This document shows, in pieces, positions 918-42,786 of a DNA stretch of 64,000 nucleotides (within the stretch, counting starts at the first letter, position 1; every line of letters starts with the position of its first letter). Location of the stretch: assembly GCF_002368415.1 (NCBI RefSeq), contig NZ_AP018290.1, forward strand, positions 6,647,614 through 6,711,613. Direction: 5' to 3'. The position numbers and the translations under genes were made by a program. Below the pieces are notes generated by a model that searched no databases, was not told the origin of the DNA, and saw only the letters and a list, made by a program, of their open reading frames with translations. This DNA is from Calothrix sp. NIES-4105 (lineage in GTDB: Bacteria; Cyanobacteriota; Cyanobacteriia; Cyanobacteriales; Nostocaceae).

Positions 918-1668
918 ACTTTTTACTTCTTAACACGGCGCCCACAACAAGCAGCGAACCCAAAACAACAGACGGCTCAGGAATTTTGCGGCTACCAGTA
1001 TTCGATTTAGAACTTAATACAAACGCACGTTCTACAGGATCGCTGCTTCTCGACCAGTTTTTTGTATCTCCTTGGTAAACACTCATACCATTAGTTCCAA
1101 AACCTTTATCTGTAGTTTCCCAGTAAATATCATCGCGCTCAAAGTTACTAGAAAGTTGCAAACCTAGCCAATAGATAGTATTCGCTGCTATATTTACTGG
1201 CTTTTCAAAATCAAACGAGTAGCTGTACTCGTTATAATAATTAAACAGCGAACGATTTGTAGCTTGTTTGAGTACATTAGTCCCAATACCCGAAGCAAAA
1301 GCTTGTGTGTCAGGTTGACCACCGATATCTTGAAATAGAAAATATTTAGCAGTGCCATCCCATTTAGACCCAGGCGCCTCAACAGTCCAAAACTTAAGAT
1401 GATCTAACCAACTGTCTTGACTCACTACAAAATCTTCTGCTTGTATCCATAAAGTAGCTTCTCTTCCAGCAGTTAAACTAGGCGCCCCATTATCAAACAA
1501 TACTTGTGACTGTGTAGATGATAGTGCATTCGTCAAATCTTGGTTAACCTTAGTTGCGTCAAATATACCTTGAGTGGCACTTACCCTTCCTGCTTGCAAT
1601 GCTAATGCAGCGAATAACACTCTAATAAAAACTGGGAACAACCTATGCGAAATTTGAAGCCGAGCCAT
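901..1668 (-). CDS. PEP-CTERM sorting-domain protein, exported
   Basis: This 255-residue protein starts with a basic, hydrophobic signal peptide (roughly residues 1-32, ending near VSA). It ends with the PEP-CTERM signature: the KIPEPS motif about 25 residues from the end, a hydrophobic helix (VVLGSLLVVGAVL) and a basic tail. PEP-CTERM proteins are exported and then processed by exosortase-type enzymes, often with a role in cell-surface or extracellular polymer biology. The middle, rich in Asn, Ser and Trp, resembles extracellular beta-sandwich proteins, but I recognise no named domain. The last residues (CARAE) and the stop lie in STRR-like repeat DNA. No exosortase gene is in the window. 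The start is followed by an obvious signal peptide and is well supported. Confidence 0.85.
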   Translation of the reverse strand: MARLQISHRLFPVFIRVLFAALALQAGRVSATQGIFDATKVNQDLTNALSSTQSQVLFDNGAPSLTAGREATLWIQAEDFVVSQDSWLDHLKFWTVEAPGSKWDGTAKYFLFQDIGGQPDTQAFASGIGTNVLKQATNRSLFNYYNEYSYSFDFEKPVNIAANTIYWLGLQLSSNFERDDIYWETTDKGFGTNGMSVYQGDTKNWSRSSDPVERAFVLSSKSNTGSRKIPEPSVVLGSLLVVGAVLRSKKCARAE

Positions 1669-2043
1669 TTACTTTCTCCTGAAACCAGGTAATTGTATTG
1701 ATAGATGCACCCGGTAGCAGTCTGTTTTAAGCATTCTTTTGTGGTAGACACACTTGATTACCACCACTTAATAAATACATAATTTTGCGTATAAATACAT
1801 AACGTATAAGCAAATTATAAACTATATTTTTTTACCATAAGCATTTCTTCTAATTATTCCTCAACACTCAGCACTCAGTACTCAGTACTCAGCACGAGCG
1901 CACGAGCGCACTCAACACTCATCACTCACCACTCTCCACTCAGCACGAGCGCACGAGCGCACGAGCGCACTCATTACTCTCCCCTTGCCTTCAAAGGCTA
2001 GATTGCGTCACAATAAAAATAAAAGTTGTAATTTGTCTTAACA
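1669..2043. other. Divergent intergenic region with STRR heptamers (1861-1976)
   Basis: This spacer separates the minus-strand PEP-CTERM gene from the plus-strand hydroxylase, so it must hold both promoters. The left half is AT-rich. From about 1861 to 1976 it is an array of ACTCAGC/ACTCAGT heptamers interrupted by iterated CACGAG/CGCACGAG units, the same repeat family as at 795-917. A conventional sigma-70 promoter for either gene could not be assigned with confidence. Confidence 0.65.
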
Positions 2044-3303
2044 ATGGCGCAAGTACAAATCTCTCAAACCCTTGAAAATCTTCAAATTACGACGAACCCT
2101 AACGGTTATGACTACGACTTGGTAATCGTTGGTGGTGGAATTGTCGGTTTAACCCTAGCAAGCGCACTTAAAAATTCGGGGTTAAATATTTTATTAATCG
2201 AAGCTCGTGTAGAATCAGCAGCAGTAATGAAAGGACAAGCGTATGCAGTACATATGCTGTCGGCTTTGATTTACGAGGGAATCGGGGTTTGGAATAAGAT
2301 TCTGCCTAATATAGAGACATATCGACGGGTACGTTTATCTGATGGTGATTATCCAGGTGTAGTGGAATTTAGCACGGCGGATATAAATAAAGATGATTTA
2401 GGATATGTAGCAGAACACCAAGCACTACTATATCCATTACAGGAATTTGTAAAAACTTGTCCGAACGTCACAGTACTTTGTCCAGCATCCGTATTAGAAA
2501 CCGAATATTTAGTTGATGCTGCTGTCACAACTATTCAAGTCGCTTCAGAAATAAAAACGATTCGTAGCAAATTGCTAGTAGCAGCAGATGGTTCGCGTTC
2601 GCGCGTTCGTGAAGCTGCTGGCATTACAACTCGTGGTTGGAAATATTGGCAGTCGTGTATTGTTGCATTTGTCAAACCTGAAAAATCGCACAATCAAACT
2701 GCATACGAAAAATTTCAACAAAGTGGACCATTTGCGATATTACCATTACCAGGAAACCGTTGCCGAATAGTTTGGACGGCGCCGCACTCTGAAGCGAAAG
2801 CATTGTGTGCGCTCAACGACGAGCAATTTTTAGCTGAGTTACAAGCACGCTACGGCGACCACATGGGTAAACTAGAGTTACTAGGTGAACGTTTTGTCTT
2901 CCAGGTGCAGTTAATGCAAAGCGATAAATACGTCAAAAACCGTTTAGCATTAATTGGTGACGCTGCACACAACTGTCACCCAGTCGGAGGACAAGGTTTA
3001 AATTTAGGCATTCGTGATGTCGCAGCATTAGCACAAGTCATTCAAGAAGCACATGTTGCGGGTAAAGATATCGGTAATATTAAAGTTTTGAAAAAATACG
3101 AACGCTGGCGCCAGATCGAAAATCTAACAATATTAGGTTTCACAGATATATTAGACAGAGTATTCTCAAACAACTTTTTACCTATAGTTATCGTGCGGCG
3201 CCTGGGTTTACTAGCAATGAAATATATACCCTTAATTAAAGTATTGTCCTTAAAACTTATGATAGGACTACTAGGAAGAACCCCCAAAATAGCCCAGCGT
3301 TAA
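2044..3303 (+). CDS. FAD-dependent hydroxylase, UbiH/COQ6 family
   Basis: This 419-residue flavoprotein monooxygenase has the dinucleotide-binding motif VGGGIVGL at residues 29-36, followed by an acidic residue at the end of the second beta strand (LLIEAR). It also has the second FAD motif GDAAHNCHP...GQGLN near residues 304-318. This layout belongs to the aromatic-ring hydroxylases of the UbiH/UbiF/COQ6 group, which hydroxylate quinone precursors using NAD(P)H and oxygen. Cyanobacteria make plastoquinone rather than ubiquinone, so the natural substrate is uncertain, and I leave the symbol empty. A hydrophobic C-terminal segment suggests membrane association. The ATG at 2044 is well placed for the Rossmann fold. 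It is a single gene with repeats on both sides. Confidence 0.85.
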   Translation: MAQVQISQTLENLQITTNPNGYDYDLVIVGGGIVGLTLASALKNSGLNILLIEARVESAAVMKGQAYAVHMLSALIYEGIGVWNKILPNIETYRRVRLSDGDYPGVVEFSTADINKDDLGYVAEHQALLYPLQEFVKTCPNVTVLCPASVLETEYLVDAAVTTIQVASEIKTIRSKLLVAADGSRSRVREAAGITTRGWKYWQSCIVAFVKPEKSHNQTAYEKFQQSGPFAILPLPGNRCRIVWTAPHSEAKALCALNDEQFLAELQARYGDHMGKLELLGERFVFQVQLMQSDKYVKNRLALIGDAAHNCHPVGGQGLNLGIRDVAALAQVIQEAHVAGKDIGNIKVLKKYERWRQIENLTILGFTDILDRVFSNNFLPIVIVRRLGLLAMKYIPLIKVLSLKLMIGLLGRTPKIAQR

Positions 3304-3640
3304 CCCTCTATAATCCCCCCTAGTCCCCCTCCAGAGCGTTCTTGTTGGGGGAATTTTAATTAAATATTACCTATACCAGGTAAAGAAACCAAATTTGTAA
3401 TGGAAATTGCATTGTAGAGACGCGATTAATCGCGTCTCTACAAACGGCGCCTTTAAACAATCTCAATATTAAAAAGTTTAAAAGCCATGATGATAATAAG
3501 TCTCTTGTTGGGAACACTAGAAGCATGAAAAGTTATTTAAACTGACGAGTCGGGTACATAATGGCTCTCTGTGATTCTAATTTCAGGGTACCGTATGCGA
3601 GAAAACGCCAAAAATCTCAATAAACTCGGCGCCAGTATAT
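3304..3640. other. Intergenic spacer with terminator-like hairpin and REP palindrome
   Basis: After the hydroxylase stop there is a C-rich/G-rich hairpin (TCCCCC near 3324 pairing with GGGGGA near 3347) followed by a T/A-rich stretch, compatible with a terminator. The REP-type palindrome lies at 3412-3443. The rest, up to the histidine kinase start, shows no gene. Confidence 0.55.
3412..3443. repeat. REP-type palindrome (32-nt perfect inverted repeat)
   Basis: This is a perfect palindrome with arms TTGTAGAGACGCGATT and AATCGCGTCTCTACAA. The same sequence is the core of the eight-copy array at 50306-51173 next to a RAYT transposase gene. Variants with compensatory changes occur at 12254, 30320 and 36062. 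It is probably a dispersed REP element mobilised by that transposase family. Confidence 0.85.
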
Positions 3641-36333: not shown

Positions 36334-36517
36334 GATTGGGTAGTAATTCAGAAACCACTATTTTTCATTATTTTGCTGGCGCCTCTCCTCGCATCCGAAA
36401 TTGGTCAAATAATATTTTTAAATTCCCATTGACATCTTGTAATACATATACTACATTGAATATACAGAGCGAAATACAGATTTCACTGCTTGTAAACTGT
36501 AAATTAAATAACTTATG

Positions 36518-36640
36518 TGGCGGGTAGCTCAGTTAGGTAGAGCGTTACATCCTTATTTGCAACTTGTCTGAAAAGACCGAATAATGAGGGTTATCGGTGA
36601 AAATCGGGGGTCGCAGGTTCAAATCCTGCTCCGCTACACC
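36518..36640 (+). ncRNA. tRNA-mimic Y RNA-like ncRNA 1
   Basis: It folds as a tRNA lacking a normal anticodon arm. The acceptor stem is UGGCGGG (36518-36524) with UCCGCUA (36630-36636). The D arm is GCUC-AGUUAGGUA-GAGC with the G-G pair in its loop, and the T arm is GCAGG-UUCAAAU-CCUGC. The 3' end reads CACC. In place of the anticodon arm, about 70 nt contain CUUGUCU-GAAA-AGACCGA and then GGUUAUCG (36563-36596). A GAAA-capped stem flanked by CUUG and CCGA resembles the Ro60-binding stem of Y RNAs (CUUGAC.../...GUCCGA). Bacterial Y RNAs with tRNA-like modules (YrlA type) are known near Ro60 orthologues, and a Ro60 gene lies about 380 bases downstream. It is not a translating tRNA. Confidence 0.85.
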
Positions 36641-36664
36641 TATTTAATCATAGTATAAATTTGT

Positions 36665-36800
36665 GCGGGATTAGCCAAGTGGTAAGGCAGGAGACAAACT
36701 TTTGTTTGTAGTCCTTAGTTAACAACCTTGTCTGAAAAGACCGAATAACAGAGGGTTATCGTCAATCTCACATTCGCAGGTTCAAATCCTGCATCCCGCA
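36665..36800 (+). ncRNA. tRNA-mimic Y RNA-like ncRNA 2
   Basis: This is the second member, 24 nt after the first. The acceptor GCGGGAU (36665-36671) pairs perfectly with AUCCCGC (36793-36799). The D arm is GCC-AAGUGGUAA-GGC, and the T arm is GCAGG-UUCAAAU-CCUGC, identical to copy 1. The body resembles a tRNA-Gln-like D-arm sequence. The anticodon region is replaced by a long arm carrying CUUGUCU-GAAA-AGACCGAAUAA and GGUUAUCG (36727-36761), nearly identical to copy 1, plus an extra self-complementary ACAAAC/GUUUGU hairpin (36694-36709). No CCA is encoded (the end is A-rich). The shared core amid different acceptor stems argues for a conserved binding site for Ro60. Confidence 0.85.
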
Positions 36801-36817
36801 AAAAATTCATTATCTAC

Positions 36818-36946
36818 GCGGAGGTCGTCTAACGATAAGACACCCAGAGATTCTTTCTTTCGTCAACTTGCCCGACAGGGACGCAGAAATTAAGGTTATC
36901 GTTTCCAACTGGGTGATGGTGCGTTTAATTCCACCTCTCCGCGCCA
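36818..36946 (+). ncRNA. tRNA-mimic Y RNA-like ncRNA 3, encoded CCA end
   Basis: This is the most diverged member. The acceptor GCGGAGG (36818-36824) pairs with UCUCCGC (36936-36942), directly followed by GCCA, that is, a discriminator base plus encoded CCA. The D arm is GUCU-AACGAUA-AGAC. The T arm is weaker (GGUG with CACC, enlarged loop). A 7-bp CACCCAG/CUGGGUG stem opens the replacement arm, which contains CUUGCCC-GACA-GGGACGCAGAAAUUAA and GGUUAUCG (36867-36901). Relative to copies 1 and 2 the capped stem has changed from UCU/AGA to CCC/GGG, so pairing is maintained by covariation. The Ro60 start codon lies about 70 bases downstream. Confidence 0.8.
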
Positions 36947-37018
36947 AATATACATTTCCATCAAGCTTTGAACATCACGTTCATGGCTATAGTTCGCCTG
37001 CAAAGGCTGATGTAGTAT

Positions 37019-37537
37019 ATGAATTACAACTTTTTCACAAAATCCCATAACAAAGCCACACCTCAAAATCAGCCTATCCCTGGACGCGAATCAGAAATGA
37101 TTCAAGGGCGTAGTGGCGGATACATGTTTGATGCTGGTATTTGGCAAATGCTACGTCGCTGCTTACTAATAGGTACAGCACAAAGCACTTATTACGCTGG
37201 CAAACAAGAATTAACAAACGACTTTGTAACAGTATTAAATCAAGCCATTGCCGAAAATCCTCGTCGTGTTGCCGATGAAGTTCTTTATGCCAGTGATGGA
37301 CGCGCGATTAATAACAGTACTCCTATCTTGGCTTTAGTGCTGCTATCAATGGGTGAAGCACCTGAAGCTAAAACAGCATTCATGGAAATTTTCCCACAAG
37401 TCGTTCGTACAGGCAGTCACTTTTACGAATGGCTCAACTACACCAAATCAATGCGCGGTTTTGGTAAAGTGATTCGCGAAGCAGGTAGAAACTGGTTAGG
37501 CAAGGAAGACGTAAAAGGTTTAGCGTACCAACTTATG
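37019..37537 (+). pseudogene. rsr: Ro60/Rsr (TROVE domain) protein, 5' half of interrupted gene
   Basis: This encodes residues 1-173 of a Ro60 orthologue. The MNYNFFTK start and the TROVE-type segments IQGRSGGYMFD, WQMLRRCLLIG, TAQSTYYAGKQELT and WLNYTKSMRGFGK begin the HEAT-repeat ring. That ring binds misfolded RNAs in its hole and Y RNAs on its outer surface. The reading is in frame up to LAYQLM (ATG at 37535-37537), where an IS200/IS605-like end begins. The frame then runs 12 foreign codons to a stop at 37571-37573. The rest of the protein resumes in frame at 42787. In bacteria Ro60 acts with Y RNA and exonucleases in RNA quality control and stress survival. As it stands the allele should not make full-length protein unless the insertion is excised. 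Confidence 0.93.
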
Positions 37538-37674
37538 AACCACCCCACCGCACTCATAGGATGGGGTTTCTAGTTTACTGACCCGGTTGGTAGAGTCGAT
37601 GCCCGGTATTATCCGGGGCACCTCTCTGTTAGAACTGGACGTGCGCGTTTCCGTGCATCCAGCTCCCGATATTC

Positions 37675-38616
37675 TTAGCTTGCGCTTTTGCCCATGTGTG
37701 TATAATCGTGACAGGATTCGTGTATTGCAATCAGATTATTAGGTTTCCAATTGTCGTGATTCCCGTCTATATGGTGTAAGTGTACTCGTTCTTCACTTGT
37801 AAACTTTAATCCACAGTGTCCACATGTATGGTTTTGCCTATTTAAGGCTTTAGAGGTTTCCCCGTCATAGAGCTTGCTATTACGCTCGCTCCAGTAGCTG
37901 ATGTCGCCGTCGTAAGGTGATTTATTCCCTTTGACATTGACATATTTGTTTTCGGAGTAGGGAACCGATGGGAACGCTTTTTCTATTAACTTAGTTGTAG
38001 ATTCTCGCGTTAATTTCGTTTCCTTATTGAAGACTTTCCATGTCCTGTATCTGATGTGCCATAATGAAAATCTTGACCCATCCATTTTACAGAAGCGGTG
38101 GTAGTTCCTCCAACCCCTAATAATAGGTGCTAGCTTTTGGGCTTTTACCTTTGCACCATAATTCGAGCAGTTAACGATAGCTTTTACCTTCTGGCGGAAT
38201 TTTTTATAGTTATCCGCTGAGGGAGTACTTCTAAATTTTCCGTTGCTTTGCACTTTAAAATGCCAGCCAAGGAAGTCAAATCCATCTGTCGTAGCGGTTA
38301 GTTTTGTCTTTTTCTCACTTACTTTTAATCCTCTGGCTTCTAGAAATTGGCTGATTTTTTCAAGTATTTTTGTTGCATCATCAGTGGGTTTAAGGATTAT
38401 TACCATATCATCGGCATAACGTACTGATTGGTGAATTTCCTCTATTCCGTTGAGCGCAATGTTAGCTAAAAGTGGACTCACAACGCCACCTTGACAAGTA
38501 CCTTGTTCTGGAAATTCAGGGTTTACACCTGCTTTTAGACAGCGAAAAATTCCCTGTTTTATGCCTGATGGGGCAATAAGGTTGTCCATTATTGTGGTGT
38601 GTGATATTCTATCGAA
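37675..38616 (-). pseudogene. Group II intron reverse transcriptase, C-terminal part (outer intron)
   Basis: This encodes the RT palm after motif A (FDRISHTTIMDN...), the catalytic RYADDMV box, the LGWHFKV thumb entry, maturase domain X (about WHIRYRTWKVFNKET) and a C-terminal HNH endonuclease (CGHCG ... HLHHIDGNHDNWKPNN ... HESCHDYTH). The frame continues upstream of the first ATG (38589) to 38616, where it meets the 3' end of the inner intron. The first residues FDRI complete the RT motif A whose other half (LDIEKC) ends at 41022. It is functional only if the inner intron splices and the N-terminal frameshift is suppressed. Confidence 0.88.
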
Positions 38617-41021
38617 AGTGGGTAGCTAGCTAACGAGGTTTCCGTTTATTTGGTTCCTTTTCTAACTAGCCCCCTCCGAACCGTGCTTACAAGTTTCCAG
38701 GTACACGGCTCTCCAGTATTCTTATTTACGGAACTCGTTTACCTGTTGGTTTACCTGCATGTATTGCGTCGTGGCATTGAGAGCAGACCATGAGAGTTTT
38801 CCTTTTACGTGCGGACATAATTTGCATCCATTGCGGTAAATCCTTTCTACCCTTAATTTTGAGGTCTTTAAGGGCGCGAATATGGTGAACTTCAATGTTG
38901 CCTTTTGCCCCACAGATTTCACATTCATCCGCGAGAAGCCGCTTGATTAATTCATTTCTAGGTGCGGGTTTTCTTTGTGTTGATAAGTCTTCTATGGTTG
39001 CTTTTAGGTTACGTTTTAATTGTATTCCTCCGAAGCGAGCTACCAAGGGTTTCTTTCCCTCAACTGGGACGGTTATTTCAACACACTTTCTTAAACCTTG
39101 TGGAAGTTTTACCGTCTTAATATAACGAGCGCAAATTTTATTCACGCTTGTCTTATGTTTACAGGCAAGGGTTTTCATCAATGAGGTTGACATAACCCAT
39201 TGTAGTTTTCGGAGCCATGCAATATTTTGAGCAAGGCTATAGAATTGTACGTACCCTCTAAACTCTGATTGAAAAATGTTGATGATAGAAAAATCATCAT
39301 CATTTATTAATTCAGGACGATGAATGGGTTTACCATTCCTCATATATAAGGTACACTTTTCTTCTATAACTTTGGCTGGTATTCTTAGTGCAACAATTCC
39401 GTTAATTGAGCGTTTACCATTGGTATGCTTATCATCGGAATATTGGACTAATATTTCGTACCCCAAAAATTTTGCTGCTTCATTCCTAGCGTTAGTAATT
39501 AAGGTCTTTTCTGGCGACAATTCCAACTGAAGTTTTTCGGCTAGAAATATCTTGACTTTTTCCTTAATTGCTTCTGCTTCAGTGAATGAACCAATAAAAC
39601 CAAGTAGAAAATCATCAGCATAACGGACGTAATTTAGCCTTCTGTATTCCGGGTCGCGAACGTCTTTGGATGGCATGTGCTGGTATTTAATTTCCAGTTG
39701 ACGCGCTTTCTCAAATTGTCCGTTTTTCCTGTAGTACCAGGCTAGTTTTACAAGTTTTGAGTACTCTGGATTTTCTGCCCGACATTTGCCGCGTGTATAC
39801 TCTGGGATGAGTATCTGCTCGATAAATTTGTCTAATTTATCAAGATAGATATTTGCGAGTATGGGTGATAAAATCGAGCCTTGCGGCGTTCCGCTAAGGG
39901 TAGAAAAATATTTCCATTGCTCGCAGTAACCTGCTTTAAGCAAGTTTTCAATTAATCTTAGGAAGCGGTTATCTTGAATTTTCTCGCGTAGGATTGACAT
40001 TAAGATTTTATGGTCTATATTGTCAAAACACCCACGAATATCTCCTTCGATAAACCATTTAGTTCCTTGCCAAGTGCGGTCTATTATTGTTAATGCCGTG
40101 TGGCATCCGCGCTTGGGTCTAAAACCGTGACTGCTGTTAGAAAATTGGGGTTCGTAATACGCTTCTAATATTAAACGTATTACTTCCTGAACCAATTTAT
40201 CATTCCAAGTAGGAATACCTAAAGGTCGGGTTTTCCCATTTTTCTTAGGGATATTAATTCGTCGTACTGGTGTCCATTGAAAACGTTCATAGCGAATATC
40301 CTCTATGAGGTCTTCAATCTTTTTAATGGACATCCCATCAACAGTCTCTGATGTAACTCCTTGCGTCATTGCCCCATCATTTTTGTAGATACGACTATAC
40401 GCGAGAAGGTACAGGTTAGGGTTGAAAAGTTGCCTGTAGATATCATCCAGAGGTAAACCACGATAACCTCTGTCTCGAATTACACTTAAAACCGTTTCGG
40501 CGTTTCGCATCTCGCGTACCTCTCGATACAAGTGTTTTGGAATACCTGTTCCCCTTCGCCATGTGGGCGGCTTTCCCGTCCTCGGACTACTATGGGAACT
40601 CTGTAACCATAGGGGTCGCCCCCCGTAGGTCATCCCGCGCTTTATTAACTTGGTACGTATCAGTGTGATTTAGGTGTCCCATTCATTCCTTAAGCCATCT
40701 CATCGGTGGCTGACTTCGTTTGAAGGAGTTGTATAGTTCAAATGCTTAAAACTACACACAAACGATTATTCCTTTTAGGCGTTGTAGGAATAGGCAATCG
40801 AGTATACCGTCAGAATTGGGCTTCAAGTAGTTTAACTTTCACCGTGTCACACAGGTCTTGCCGAACAATAGTTTTAACGCCTTCTCTCTATTCCCGGCTT
40901 TACCAACATGCTGTTGTCCCCTTTGTCTTTCGACTCCAGGTTAGTTGGTTGACCTAGAGACTATCTCCTTATTCTCTCCCAACTTTGGGTTGGGGATACC
41001 GTATTAACTGTCACGGCGCAC
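38617..41021 (-). mobile_element. Inner group II intron, inserted in the outer intron's RT gene
   Basis: Read on the minus strand it begins GTGCGCCGTGACAG (5' G at 41021, GUGYG consensus). It ends around 38617 just before TTCGAT (FD of the split RT motif; the exact 3' base is uncertain by one). Domain V is at 38678-38711 (GAGCCGTGT...GCACGGTTC with GGAAAC loop). It carries one intact RT-maturase-HNH gene (38726-40510 or -40633). The length of about 2.4 kb is typical. It is in the same orientation as the outer intron, so one transcript could splice inner then outer, a twintron arrangement. The encoded protein differs strongly from the outer RT, so this is not simple self-duplication. Confidence 0.87.
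38726..40633 (-). CDS. ltrA: Group II intron-encoded reverse transcriptase/maturase with HNH (inner intron)
   Basis: This is an intact protein of 635 residues as the frame is open, or about 594 from the more natural start MRNAETVLSVIRDRG (40510). It has all RT blocks (TRPLGIPTWNDKLVQEV, FSNSSHGFRPKRGCH, EGDIRGCFDNIDH, LSGTPQGSILSPILANIYLD and the catalytic VRYADDF). A large insert lies between blocks 4 and 5, then maturase domain X, and a C-terminal HNH (CEICGAKGNIEVHHIRALKD ... CSQCHDAIHAGK). Such proteins bind and help splice their intron and carry out retrohoming by target-primed reverse transcription. It could in principle act on the outer intron too, but specificity is usually for the cognate RNA. 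Confidence 0.93.
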   Translation of the reverse strand: MTYGGRPLWLQSSHSSPRTGKPPTWRRGTGIPKHLYREVREMRNAETVLSVIRDRGYRGLPLDDIYRQLFNPNLYLLAYSRIYKNDGAMTQGVTSETVDGMSIKKIEDLIEDIRYERFQWTPVRRINIPKKNGKTRPLGIPTWNDKLVQEVIRLILEAYYEPQFSNSSHGFRPKRGCHTALTIIDRTWQGTKWFIEGDIRGCFDNIDHKILMSILREKIQDNRFLRLIENLLKAGYCEQWKYFSTLSGTPQGSILSPILANIYLDKLDKFIEQILIPEYTRGKCRAENPEYSKLVKLAWYYRKNGQFEKARQLEIKYQHMPSKDVRDPEYRRLNYVRYADDFLLGFIGSFTEAEAIKEKVKIFLAEKLQLELSPEKTLITNARNEAAKFLGYEILVQYSDDKHTNGKRSINGIVALRIPAKVIEEKCTLYMRNGKPIHRPELINDDDFSIINIFQSEFRGYVQFYSLAQNIAWLRKLQWVMSTSLMKTLACKHKTSVNKICARYIKTVKLPQGLRKCVEITVPVEGKKPLVARFGGIQLKRNLKATIEDLSTQRKPAPRNELIKRLLADECEICGAKGNIEVHHIRALKDLKIKGRKDLPQWMQIMSARKRKTLMVCSQCHDAIHAGKPTGKRVP

Positions 41022-41592
41022 GCACTTCTCAATATCGAGTTCTATAACCCGTTTGTTGATTCCTTTTGCTTGGGAGTTTAGGTTATGAAATAGGACTTTT
41101 TGGGCATCATGTGCCGAGCGTCCGGCTCTAAACCCGTAGCTTTTTTCGTGGAATGTTGCTTCGTGTGCTGGTTCTAAAGCATATTTAGCGAGGCATTGCC
41201 AACACCTATCTGCAATAGTTGGAATTTTTAGCATCCTATTGCTACCGTCTTTCTTAGGAATTGGGATTGCACGTAACCCTTGGTGTTTCCAATTGTTACT
41301 GGATGTTTTTAGCAGTTCTTCAAGTTCAAAGCGCTCTTTAAAATTGAGGGCTTTTTTACCATCAATACCTGCCGTTTTTTTACCAGCGTTTAGCTGTGTT
41401 ACTTGACGGATAGCCAAGAATCTAGCCGCTTTGGACTTCAGAATAAGTTTTTGCAAAGACATTGCTTTACGCTTGTCTCCTGCTTGAACCGCTTTAAACA
41501 CTCTATGAGTGTAGGCGGAATAAATCGCGGCGGAATTTCTTCCACGGTAATTTTATCCAAGATTCACTAGTATTGCTACTGTGCCCAATCAT
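41022..41592 (-). pseudogene. Group II intron reverse transcriptase, N-terminal part with frameshift (outer intron)
   Basis: Two frames make up the N-terminus. MIGHSSNTSESWIKLPWKK and then FRRDLFRLHS ends at a stop at 41503. The protein continues one frame over as RVFKAVQAGDKRKAMSLQ and then the RT0/RT1 region (LRAIPIPKKDGSNRMLKIPT), RT2 (SYGFRAGRSAHDA) and the start of motif A (VIELDIEKC). At 41022 the inner intron begins. One extra base near 41503-41508 explains the shift. The joined product with 37675-38616 would be a typical RT of about 550-560 residues. I treat it as a damaged gene unless the shift is programmed or a sequence error. Confidence 0.85.
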
Positions 41593-42507
41593 ACTCTTCT
41601 CCATTAAGTGTTTTCTGAATACCTTGCAGCAATTACGCCGCATCCTATCCGAATCAAAAGATTTCCGTACCTCGTCATACCTACCTGAAGTTCGACCTCT
41701 CCAAGACTTTTGACTCGTTTTTCTTCGTTCCAAGAGATGATTGATTGTTCCGTTAGGAAGTGCCAATTTAACCATCAGACCCCCAGGTTCTTACCGCTGT
41801 TTCACTGAGACGCGGCAGGGATTCACTCTGATGAAGTCGGGTTCAAAGGATATGTCCCGCTTTAGGATAGGTTACTTTTATAGGCATCTGTTTTTCCATA
41901 GGAACCCCCCGTTAGCGCCAGTGTCCACCCATAACGGTAGTCTGATTGCGCCCTGTTCCCAGCTTCAGCCTCCGAAAACCGAGTTCGGTCATTGTGGGCA
42001 GGTAGGGAGTCAAGCATGAACCTTGCTGGTGGGACTTTCACCCACATCAGTCTCTTAGTTCAAGGTTACTTTAGGTGTTCACCTTGGGTAGCTTATGTAC
42101 GGGCTGATTACCGTGATTCAGCCACCAACGAATCGCACCAGTGAGTCCTATAGTCGTGCAACAAGACTTGCTCGCTGCCGTACCTTTACTTGAACTGCGT
42201 CGCCAACACTGTACAGTTTCCATTTCTGGGTAGTTGCTGCTAATACCGCCTTGGAACTACTGGGGATCGGTGTGGTTTTGCATTCCACTCTCAACGGGGC
42301 AGTTACCGTCTCAAAGCTTTCGTCCTGTACGCATATCCAAATGTTGGCGCAAATCCTTGAAGATTTTACGTACCAAAGGTATTTCTTGGTACAACGCTCT
42401 ATCTTCAGTTGTCAAGGTTCATGTTATTATTGTAATGCAATTAGCATTACAAGTCAATATGGCTACTCCCTTCCCGGCATAAGATTACCTATCTTCCCTC
42501 CTCCTTT

Positions 42508-42708
42508 GTGCCCTTTGTGTCCTTTGTGGTTCATTCCAAATTAGTATTCTTTGAGTGGGAAGGGAGTAGTCCCAATTCATCGCTAACAATTCGGATTACA
42601 GAAGAAGAAAAGGCGATACTCAAAGCTTATTGTAAGCAAACAACACGCCAGCAAAGTGAGGTAATTCGAGAGTTTGTGCGCTCACTTGAAAAGAAATTAC
42701 AAAAATAA
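42508..42708 (+). CDS. Small ribbon-helix-helix protein of the IS element
   Basis: The meaningful part is about 45 residues starting near SSLTIRITEEEKAILKAYCK and continuing SEVIREFVRSLEKKLQK, a CopG/Arc-type ribbon-helix-helix DNA-binding fold. The upstream frame (MPFVSFVVHSKL...) is repeat DNA and probably not translated. Small RHH genes often accompany IS200/IS605-type elements in cyanobacteria, placed near one end and divergent from tnpB, which is the layout here. It may repress transposition. It ends 78 bases before the right border of the element. Confidence 0.6.
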   Translation: MPFVSFVVHSKLVFFEWEGSSPNSSLTIRITEEEKAILKAYCKQTTRQQSEVIREFVRSLEKKLQK

Positions 42709-42786
42709 AAGGTATCGAACCTTTTATTTTTGTGCGAAGCACCATCCCCACCTTGTAAGAAGGTGGGGAATTCCGCGAATCCGTTA

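Follow-up and report, generated by a model that had tools for sequence, protein, structure and literature searches.

Three RNAs that combine the acceptor, D and T arms of a tRNA with a Ro60-type Y stem are encoded at 36517-36946 (+ strand) of the window, by which we mean the whole 64,000-nucleotide stretch of Calothrix sp. NIES-4105 DNA analyzed here. They are probably Y RNAs in tRNA order, with the putative Ro60-binding stem set inside the anticodon arm of a tRNA body. At the level of sequence comparison, the anatomy, the covariation, the linkage to and co-occurrence with the Ro60 gene rsr, and the permutation relative to YrlA all agree with this description. A sequence-only reading had reported three tRNA-mimic Y RNAs beside a Ro60 gene; that observation was confirmed, and the interpretation placed on it is partly supported.

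Three tRNA-like RNAs and an interrupted rsr gene

We searched the locus with two covariance models, neither of which contained a sequence from the window: R1, a model of the Y stem (59 examples), and R2, a model of the whole RNA (34 RNAs). R1 matched copies 1-3 with E-values of 1.9e-15, 1.6e-13 and 4.7e-9 (62, 55 and 39 bits), and R2 with 1.2e-20, 9e-13 and 1.2e-12 (99, 64 and 64 bits); by the tools' own warning, these E-values are rough. As a scale for the R2 scores, the best ordinary tRNA of the same genome reached 48.6 bits. The three RNAs stand before rsr, as had been claimed. The features of the locus were as follows.

36429..36457, + strand: sigma-70-like promoter (TTGACA, 17, TACATT) 5' of copy 1; consensus scan, weak evidence
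36517..36637, + strand: copy 1, tRNA-ordered Y RNA; R2 98.8 bits, Rfam tRNA 36.5 bits, fold
36550..36597, + strand: Y stem (Ro60-type site) of copy 1; R1 62.2 bits
36665..36800, + strand: copy 2, tRNA-ordered Y RNA, Type II, outer stem GAGA/UCUC retained; R2 64.3 bits, Rfam tRNA 47.8 bits
36694..36709, + strand: small hairpin adjoining the copy 2 Y stem (ACAAAC UUUU GUUUGU); sequence, fold
36713..36762, + strand: Y stem of copy 2; R1 55.4 bits
36818..36946, + strand: copy 3, tRNA-ordered Y RNA with degenerate T arm; R2 63.6 bits, sequence; below Rfam tRNA gathering
36852..36902, + strand: Y stem of copy 3; R1 39.3 bits
36994..37010, + strand: Y-like leader hairpin remnant; R1 10.1 bits, E 0.73, comparison with locus L193
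37019..37534, + strand: 5' part of rsr (Ro60); tblastn-type match to residues 1-175 of a relative's Rsr, 82% identity; L193 DNA match ends at 37534
37535..42783, - strand: 5,249-bp insertion in rsr; group II domain V matches, reverse-transcriptase-like frames, clean boundary against L193
42784..43872, + strand: 3' part of rsr; residues 170-533, 84% identity, TROVE match
L092 (G000:C1:2290500-2298000), second locus in the window's genome: rsr fragment and two family RNAs

The body of copy 1 spans 36518-36637, and G36517 with C36637 forms an eighth acceptor pair. Folded without constraint, copy 1 gave the 8-bp acceptor, the D arm, the Y stem, a short hairpin and the T arm. In copy 3, the acceptor is formed by 36818-36824 with 36936-36942, followed by G36943 and an encoded CCA at 36944-36946. 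Folding z-scores were -2.0 for copy 1, -3.6 for copy 2 and -1.3 for copy 3, whose folding energy alone was no better than that of shuffles. Complete acceptor, D and T arms had been ascribed to all three RNAs; this holds for copies 1 and 2, but the T arm of copy 3 is degenerate, with an imperfect stem and no TTC. Similarly, a Ro60 motif was said to stand where a tRNA has its anticodon arm, and the Y stem is indeed there, but the arm often survives around it rather than giving way altogether: GAGA/UCUC persists in copy 2 and ACCCAG/CUGGGU in copy 3, and a short hairpin is present 3' of the Y stem in copy 1. The capped stem was correctly given as UCU/AGA in copies 1 and 2 and CCC/GGG in copy 3, and the three copies, which lie directly 5' of rsr, differ in their acceptors. 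By consensus scan, five sigma-70-like sites were found in the region, against 1.9 expected.

Copies 1 and 2 passed the Rfam tRNA gathering score, copy 2 despite its long insert, and copy 3 failed it. Neither YrlA nor any other Rfam Y RNA family matched 36400-37050, even at E<=10, so the RNAs are not YrlA by model. No tmRNA match was found in the window at gathering.

The rsr gene downstream is interrupted in this genome by the 5,249-bp insert. The insert contains group II intron domain V matches (RF00029) at 37590-37667 and 38617-38713 (- strand); the same strand has three reverse-transcriptase-like frames (YADD, by eye), and the insert is possibly made up of nested elements. Because these elements lie on the strand opposite rsr, they would not be expected to splice out of the rsr transcript. 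In Calothrix sp. PCC 7716 (L193), whose DNA is 89-92% identical to that of the window, rsr is uninterrupted; this locus matched copies 1 and 2 of the window, with no separate match to copy 3. A relative's Rsr keeps K170, R174 and H187, the Y-RNA-contact residues of Xenopus Ro60. The same protein matched D. radiodurans Rsr (2nvo, E 2.3e-75) and Xenopus Ro60 (1yvp, E 3.9e-73). No intact rsr was found among the three Rsr matches in the window's genome, the third being a distant fragment (residues 1-108, one stop) that lies beside two more family RNAs (95.4 and 52.4 bits). Given the interruption of rsr and the lack of an intact copy among these matches, the RNA set of the window is probably idle or decaying. 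The same genome also has a tRNA gene cluster at G000:C1:7436838-7443634, in which some genes are divergent second versions of isotypes found elsewhere.

Anatomy of the family and its link to Ro60

From 339 Y modules we parsed 230 distinct bodies, the other 109 being unparsed or duplicates. Parsing demanded that at least 6 of the 7 acceptor positions be paired, which inflates the pairing counts. The 61 bodies counted for their acceptors (26 of 87 had been dropped beforehand) had 30 different 5' acceptor strands, a variety that the pairing filter does not explain. In Type I (164 of the 230 bodies), which is defined by a 3' linker of 14-20 nt, the Y stem is inserted between positions 29 and 30. 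The outer anticodon pairs of this type were formed in 401/492 cells (shuffled mean 281, maximum 299) and the inner ones in 245/328 (shuffled 162, maximum 183); the loop has U33 in 126/164 bodies and a purine at 37 in 149/164. In Type II, exemplified by copy 2 of the window, the anticodon stem is kept and its loop is swapped for a small hairpin and the Y stem. Two further forms stand first in a cluster or downstream of rsr.

An alignment of 34 whole RNAs was paired in 95.8% of cells against 82.2% after shuffling. Double changes occurred in 159 cells (41.7 shuffled) and at 24 of 33 pairs (15.5 shuffled), including 7/7 acceptor pairs and 4/5 T-stem pairs. None of 500 shuffles reached the paired percentage, the number of double-change pairs or that of double-change cells; further pair types numbered 53 against 46.7 shuffled, a value reached by 2/500 shuffles. 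The Ro60-type stem with its bulged C and CUUG/CGA strands is present, as judged by R1 matches and the YrlA consensus, and its short hairpin covaries.

Of the 230 bodies, G-1:C73 is present in 170, U1-A72 in 182, and CCA is encoded at the expected offset in 107, as it is in copy 3 of the window. Their D arms were generic in 172 bodies, Gln/Cys/His/Ser-like in 18, TAGTTT in nine, Leu-like in eight, TAGTTC in seven, Glu/Asp-like in one and other in 15. The acceptor does not match the isotype of the anticodon, the same acceptors occurring with many anticodons; UGGC[A/G]GG, for example, accompanies AGG, UGG, CGG, UCC, CUU, UUU and GUU. The bodies could not each be traced to one parent tRNA, as the best isotype was scattered and scores lay near the cross-isotype baseline; the D-arm types alone were distinguishable.

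We then analyzed how the family is distributed with respect to Ro60. Among 292 genomes of the phylum, 31 had a TROVE match and 24 had a Y stem (R1): 23/31 with a TROVE match and 1/261 without. The motif proposed from the window is conserved at other cyanobacterial TROVE loci. The lone genome without TROVE, G048, had a weak match (30.8 bits). No Y stem was found in eight TROVE genomes (G018, G021, G030, G032, G038, G041, G044 and G127), and four of the eight loci in such genomes gave YrlA matches below gathering at E<=1. Around TROVE matches, an element consisting of CUUG, a short hairpin, CCGA and GGUUAUC recurs. In 30 TROVE loci, R1 gave 93 matches at E<=1; six were left out (two opposite the rsr strand at 13.9-14.6 bits, three leader hairpins and one partial), and 87/87 of those kept were on the rsr strand. 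A Y stem lay downstream of rsr in 14 of the 23 loci having R1 matches. Parsed bodies in TROVE loci (n=160) were all on the rsr strand, 157 upstream and three downstream. The first rule for finding rsr missed it in L045, L052 and L058; it was found later in L045 and L052. Two 8-kb stretches carried a Y stem with no TROVE match, L091 (G143:C3:857500-865500, 55.9 bits) and L093 (G048:C483:3500-11500, 30.8 bits).

When the genomes of 84,980 species were scanned for an exact pattern, at least 116 stretches were found, 80 of which were examined; the majority of the records were cyanobacterial. TROVE was present in 69/80, and of the 11 stretches without it, seven have the pattern about 1 kb or less from the stretch end, whereas L148, L184, L196 and L200 do not. 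The non-cyanobacterial records in which TROVE was accompanied by R1 matches at E<=0.01, with MAG taxon labels as given in the records, were Lihuaxuella thermophila (Bacillota, five matches), a Chloroflexi MAG (two), an Abditibacterium MAG (four, weak, 25-33 bits) and a Gracilibacteria MAG (two), the last of which probably reflects cyanobacterial contamination. The exact pattern was absent from virus contigs in a strict motif scan, but the covariance models did match there. In 80 virus-contig Ro60 loci, kept from 160 TROVE relatives, R2 gave 37 matches that exceeded 50 bits and measured 105 nt or more; they fell in 27 loci (23 once near-duplicates were removed), all on the rsr strand. The set had been described as three-membered and cyanobacterial; in fact it extends to other phyla and virus contigs, and its copy number varies, with six Y stems upstream of rsr and one downstream in locus L044. 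In Picosynechococcus sp. PCC 7002, an uninterrupted set on plasmid pAQ7 (L352) has three RNAs 5' of an annotated TROVE gene (R2 98.5, 55.1 and 50.0 bits); the RNAs occupy positions 3042-3164, 3190-3295 and 3322-3443 of L352.

Module order and alternative readings

YrlA (RF02553; 6CU1) resembles the window family in having a Ro60 stem with CUUG and CGA, a D arm, a T arm and an acceptor helix, and in lying beside rsr. In the Rfam YrlA consensus, CGA is near the 5' end and CUUG near the 3' end, with the T arm, a closed acceptor hairpin and the D arm between them. YrlA therefore ends in the Ro60 stem and its acceptor is a closed hairpin, whereas in the window family the CUUG/CGA strands are joined by a loop, the acceptor is open with its strands at both ends, and anticodon-arm pairs are kept. 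The YrlA order is accordingly not that of the window RNAs, which carry the YrlA motif rotated, and no YrlA match at gathering was found in 15 relatives' loci. It had been correctly noted that a Y-type Ro60 stem is joined to tRNA-like modules and that the molecule ends in the latter.

Some virus-contig Y RNAs have the ordinary order. These RNAs (e.g. those of L339) and animal Y RNAs have a bulged-C Ro60 site as in the window family, and the virus-contig ones also share GGUUAUC with it; unlike the window family, ordinary-order Y RNAs end in the Ro60 stem, and the simple ones (L339) have no tRNA body. In the L339 array, ordinary-order Y RNAs and one tRNA-ordered RNA stand side by side as distinct units. 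Adjacent units of both topologies, as at L339, may point to tandem duplication as the route between them. Fusion of a tRNA part to another functional module is also the plan of tmRNA, which has an mRNA-like part and SmpB.

Circular permutation had been claimed relative to animal Y RNAs. It holds against the Rfam YrlA consensus; the animal comparison rests on the conserved GGUCCGA and its critical bulged nucleotide, as described in the available part of PMC11277228. PMC4726728 describes the Ro60 site of vertebrate Y RNAs as a helix with one bulged C plus another bulge. In ARTEMIS, according to the available part of PMC11472068, 6CU1 superposes on tRNA by circular permutation.

The tRNA-like anticodon loops could instead be decoys that absorb attack by an anticodon nuclease or another tRNA-cleaving agent (e.g. 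of a phage or toxin), with Ro60 as the carrier. Anticodon-like loops of many types do survive, the RNAs are present in virus contigs, and Hughes 2020 (PMC7790460) raised inhibition of an anticodon nuclease as a possible role of YrlA. However, an anticodon loop is missing from its usual place in two of the window's three copies, and we regard a decoy function as unlikely.

In arrays, the units could also be drawn differently, as YrlA-like RNAs that each stretch between the Y stems of adjacent copies, with the acceptor formed between neighbors. Stem counts over 102 loci are compatible with this partition: 4-bp stems gave 290 matches in tRNA order and 285 in the other order, and 6-bp stems gave 1 and 48 (shuffled 1.3 and 6.0). 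Furthermore, the YrlA model reached 31 bits, against a gathering score of 69, over a region spanning PCC 7002 copies 1 and 2, and ordinary-order Y RNAs are common in virus contigs. By contrast, full acceptor pairing was found within the unit in 214/230 bodies (selected at 6/7) and across neighbors in only 49/129; where neighbors differ, the mean was 6.97 of 7 within and 5.94 across. In L036, L177 and L202, the single R1 match has no family neighbor within the stretch; covariation of the short Y hairpin is local, and L339 has both orders as distinct adjacent units. Taken alone, the stem-order counts give tRNA order no advantage in arrays; it is favored by the within-unit acceptor pairing and by the single-copy loci, and the rotated partition is very unlikely to be right.

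We give still less credence to the view that the genes are intron-containing tRNAs, in which the insert is spliced out to leave an ordinary tRNA, although a 2017 paper (PMC5733544) seems to have reported two such genes in this way. Its available text describes group I introns in tRNA-Gly(UCC) and tRNA-Lys(CUU) genes of two cyanobacteria, with the motifs CTTGxCT, AAGxC, GAAGAAT and GG; compared by these published motifs, the introns fit the Y stem, and both anticodons occur in the Type I set. Ro60 has 0 occurrences in that paper. The sequence-only reading had named an ordinary tRNA with a proper anticodon after intron removal as grounds for rejecting Y RNAs. In sequence terms this is partly the case: in Type I an anticodon stem and 7-nt anticodon-like loop, with the pairing and U33 and R37 frequencies given above, do remain once the insert is taken out. 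Nevertheless, splicing leaves the link to Ro60 and the mismatch of acceptor and anticodon unexplained: the insert tracks rsr and matches the YrlA Ro60 stem, and one acceptor type occurs with many anticodons in bodies that fit no single isotype. In addition, the inserts are about 50-60 nt long, no group I family matched the window at gathering, Type II copies lack such an anticodon loop, and the genome has 61 Rfam tRNA matches, copy 1 included. Ordinary tRNAs were also rejected: ARAGORN found 0 tRNAs in the window, acceptors and isotypes are mismatched, and the Rfam tRNA model passes only copies 1 and 2, with a long insert.

A leader hairpin and a possible mechanism

Cyanobacterial rsr leaders carry a hairpin of the form UUG-CCY-loop-RGG-C-Y-GG with a GGAG-like Shine-Dalgarno sequence. 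The hairpin begins 22-35 nt 5' of the start codon in all distinct listed examples except L217 (52 nt). A regular expression found it at 82/96 starts, compared with 135/19,200 mononucleotide-shuffled leaders. The 14 misses include L031-L035 and L059, which have TROVE without a Y stem, L036, L046 and L060, where the start codon is wrongly placed, and L177 and L204, which have near variants; the hairpin was not seen at L040, L180 or L198. Covariation in the leader was modest: 93.2% of cells were paired against 87.0% shuffled, with 12 double-change cells against 3.5, and pairs with double changes numbered 2 against 1.7, a value reached by 376/500 shuffles. Many of the aligned rows come from close Nostoc relatives. 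The single leader folded (L044) was no better than shuffles (z 0.02). In virus contigs, 9/69 leaders passed a lenient hairpin rule. The remnant in the window lacks the GGAG present in L193. A hairpin resembling the Y stem at this place in cyanobacterial leaders points to possible autoregulation.

We propose that the Y RNAs in tRNA order would work as follows. The RNA would start and end at the acceptor stem, with the Ro60 site as an internal capped hairpin; the putative Ro60 stem comprises CUU, a G-Y-C-Y/R-G-R-C hairpin, a bulged C with GA, a lower helix and GGUUAUC. Units would be released from the array by RNase P together with the enzymes that process tRNA 3' ends, and Rsr would bind the Y stem. 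YrlA tethers Rsr to PNPase in RYPER and bears tRNA-type modifications, according to the available part of PMC8394870; as for YrlA, the tRNA module may be the effector, whether it tethers PNPase, gates it or contacts tRNA enzymes. One Ro60 may have several adaptors in the form of different tRNA bodies. In cyanobacteria, free Rsr may repress its own translation via the leader hairpin, with Y RNAs competing.

More broadly, we tentatively suggest that bacterial Y RNAs may have two natural topologies, related as circular permutants, of which the tRNA-ordered one would be widespread and overlooked or taken for intron-bearing tRNAs; that its members would provide each Ro60 with a set of adaptors that differ in tRNA body and are matured by the tRNA pathway; and that cyanobacterial Rsr would sense their supply via a hairpin at its own ribosome-binding site. 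The best-ranked literature matches contained no description of tRNA-ordered Y RNAs. In 2014, Chen reportedly described Y RNAs close to Ro60 in >250 species of bacteria and phages, and some of these could be tRNA-ordered; an earlier description of part of the family is possible. If correct, these proposals would supply two naturally occurring circular permutants of a single structured RNA, connect Y RNAs with the genes and the processing of tRNAs, and set right an apparent misreading of such RNAs as group I introns. Should the leader hairpin be confirmed, it would act as a simple feedback sensor for Ro60. Picosynechococcus sp. PCC 7002, a laboratory strain that is transformable and has three RNAs and rsr on pAQ7, would serve as a system for the function of bacterial Ro60-Y RNA particles.

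Further observations concern other TROVE loci. In deep-branching members of the phylum, tRNA-like arrays lie 5' of TROVE at L059 (3751-5487) and L035 (5464-5561 and 5727-5779); eight tRNA-like genes of L059 and two of L035 have a partly palindromic T-loop insert of about 24 nt between GGTT and CGA. In L032 (341-1317) and L034 (84-1244), TROVE genes are near big arrays of ordinary tRNA genes, and YrlA matches below gathering were found. In L155, the Microseira wollei TROVE gene (1175-3527) is another interrupted rsr, in two pieces with about 760 bases between them.
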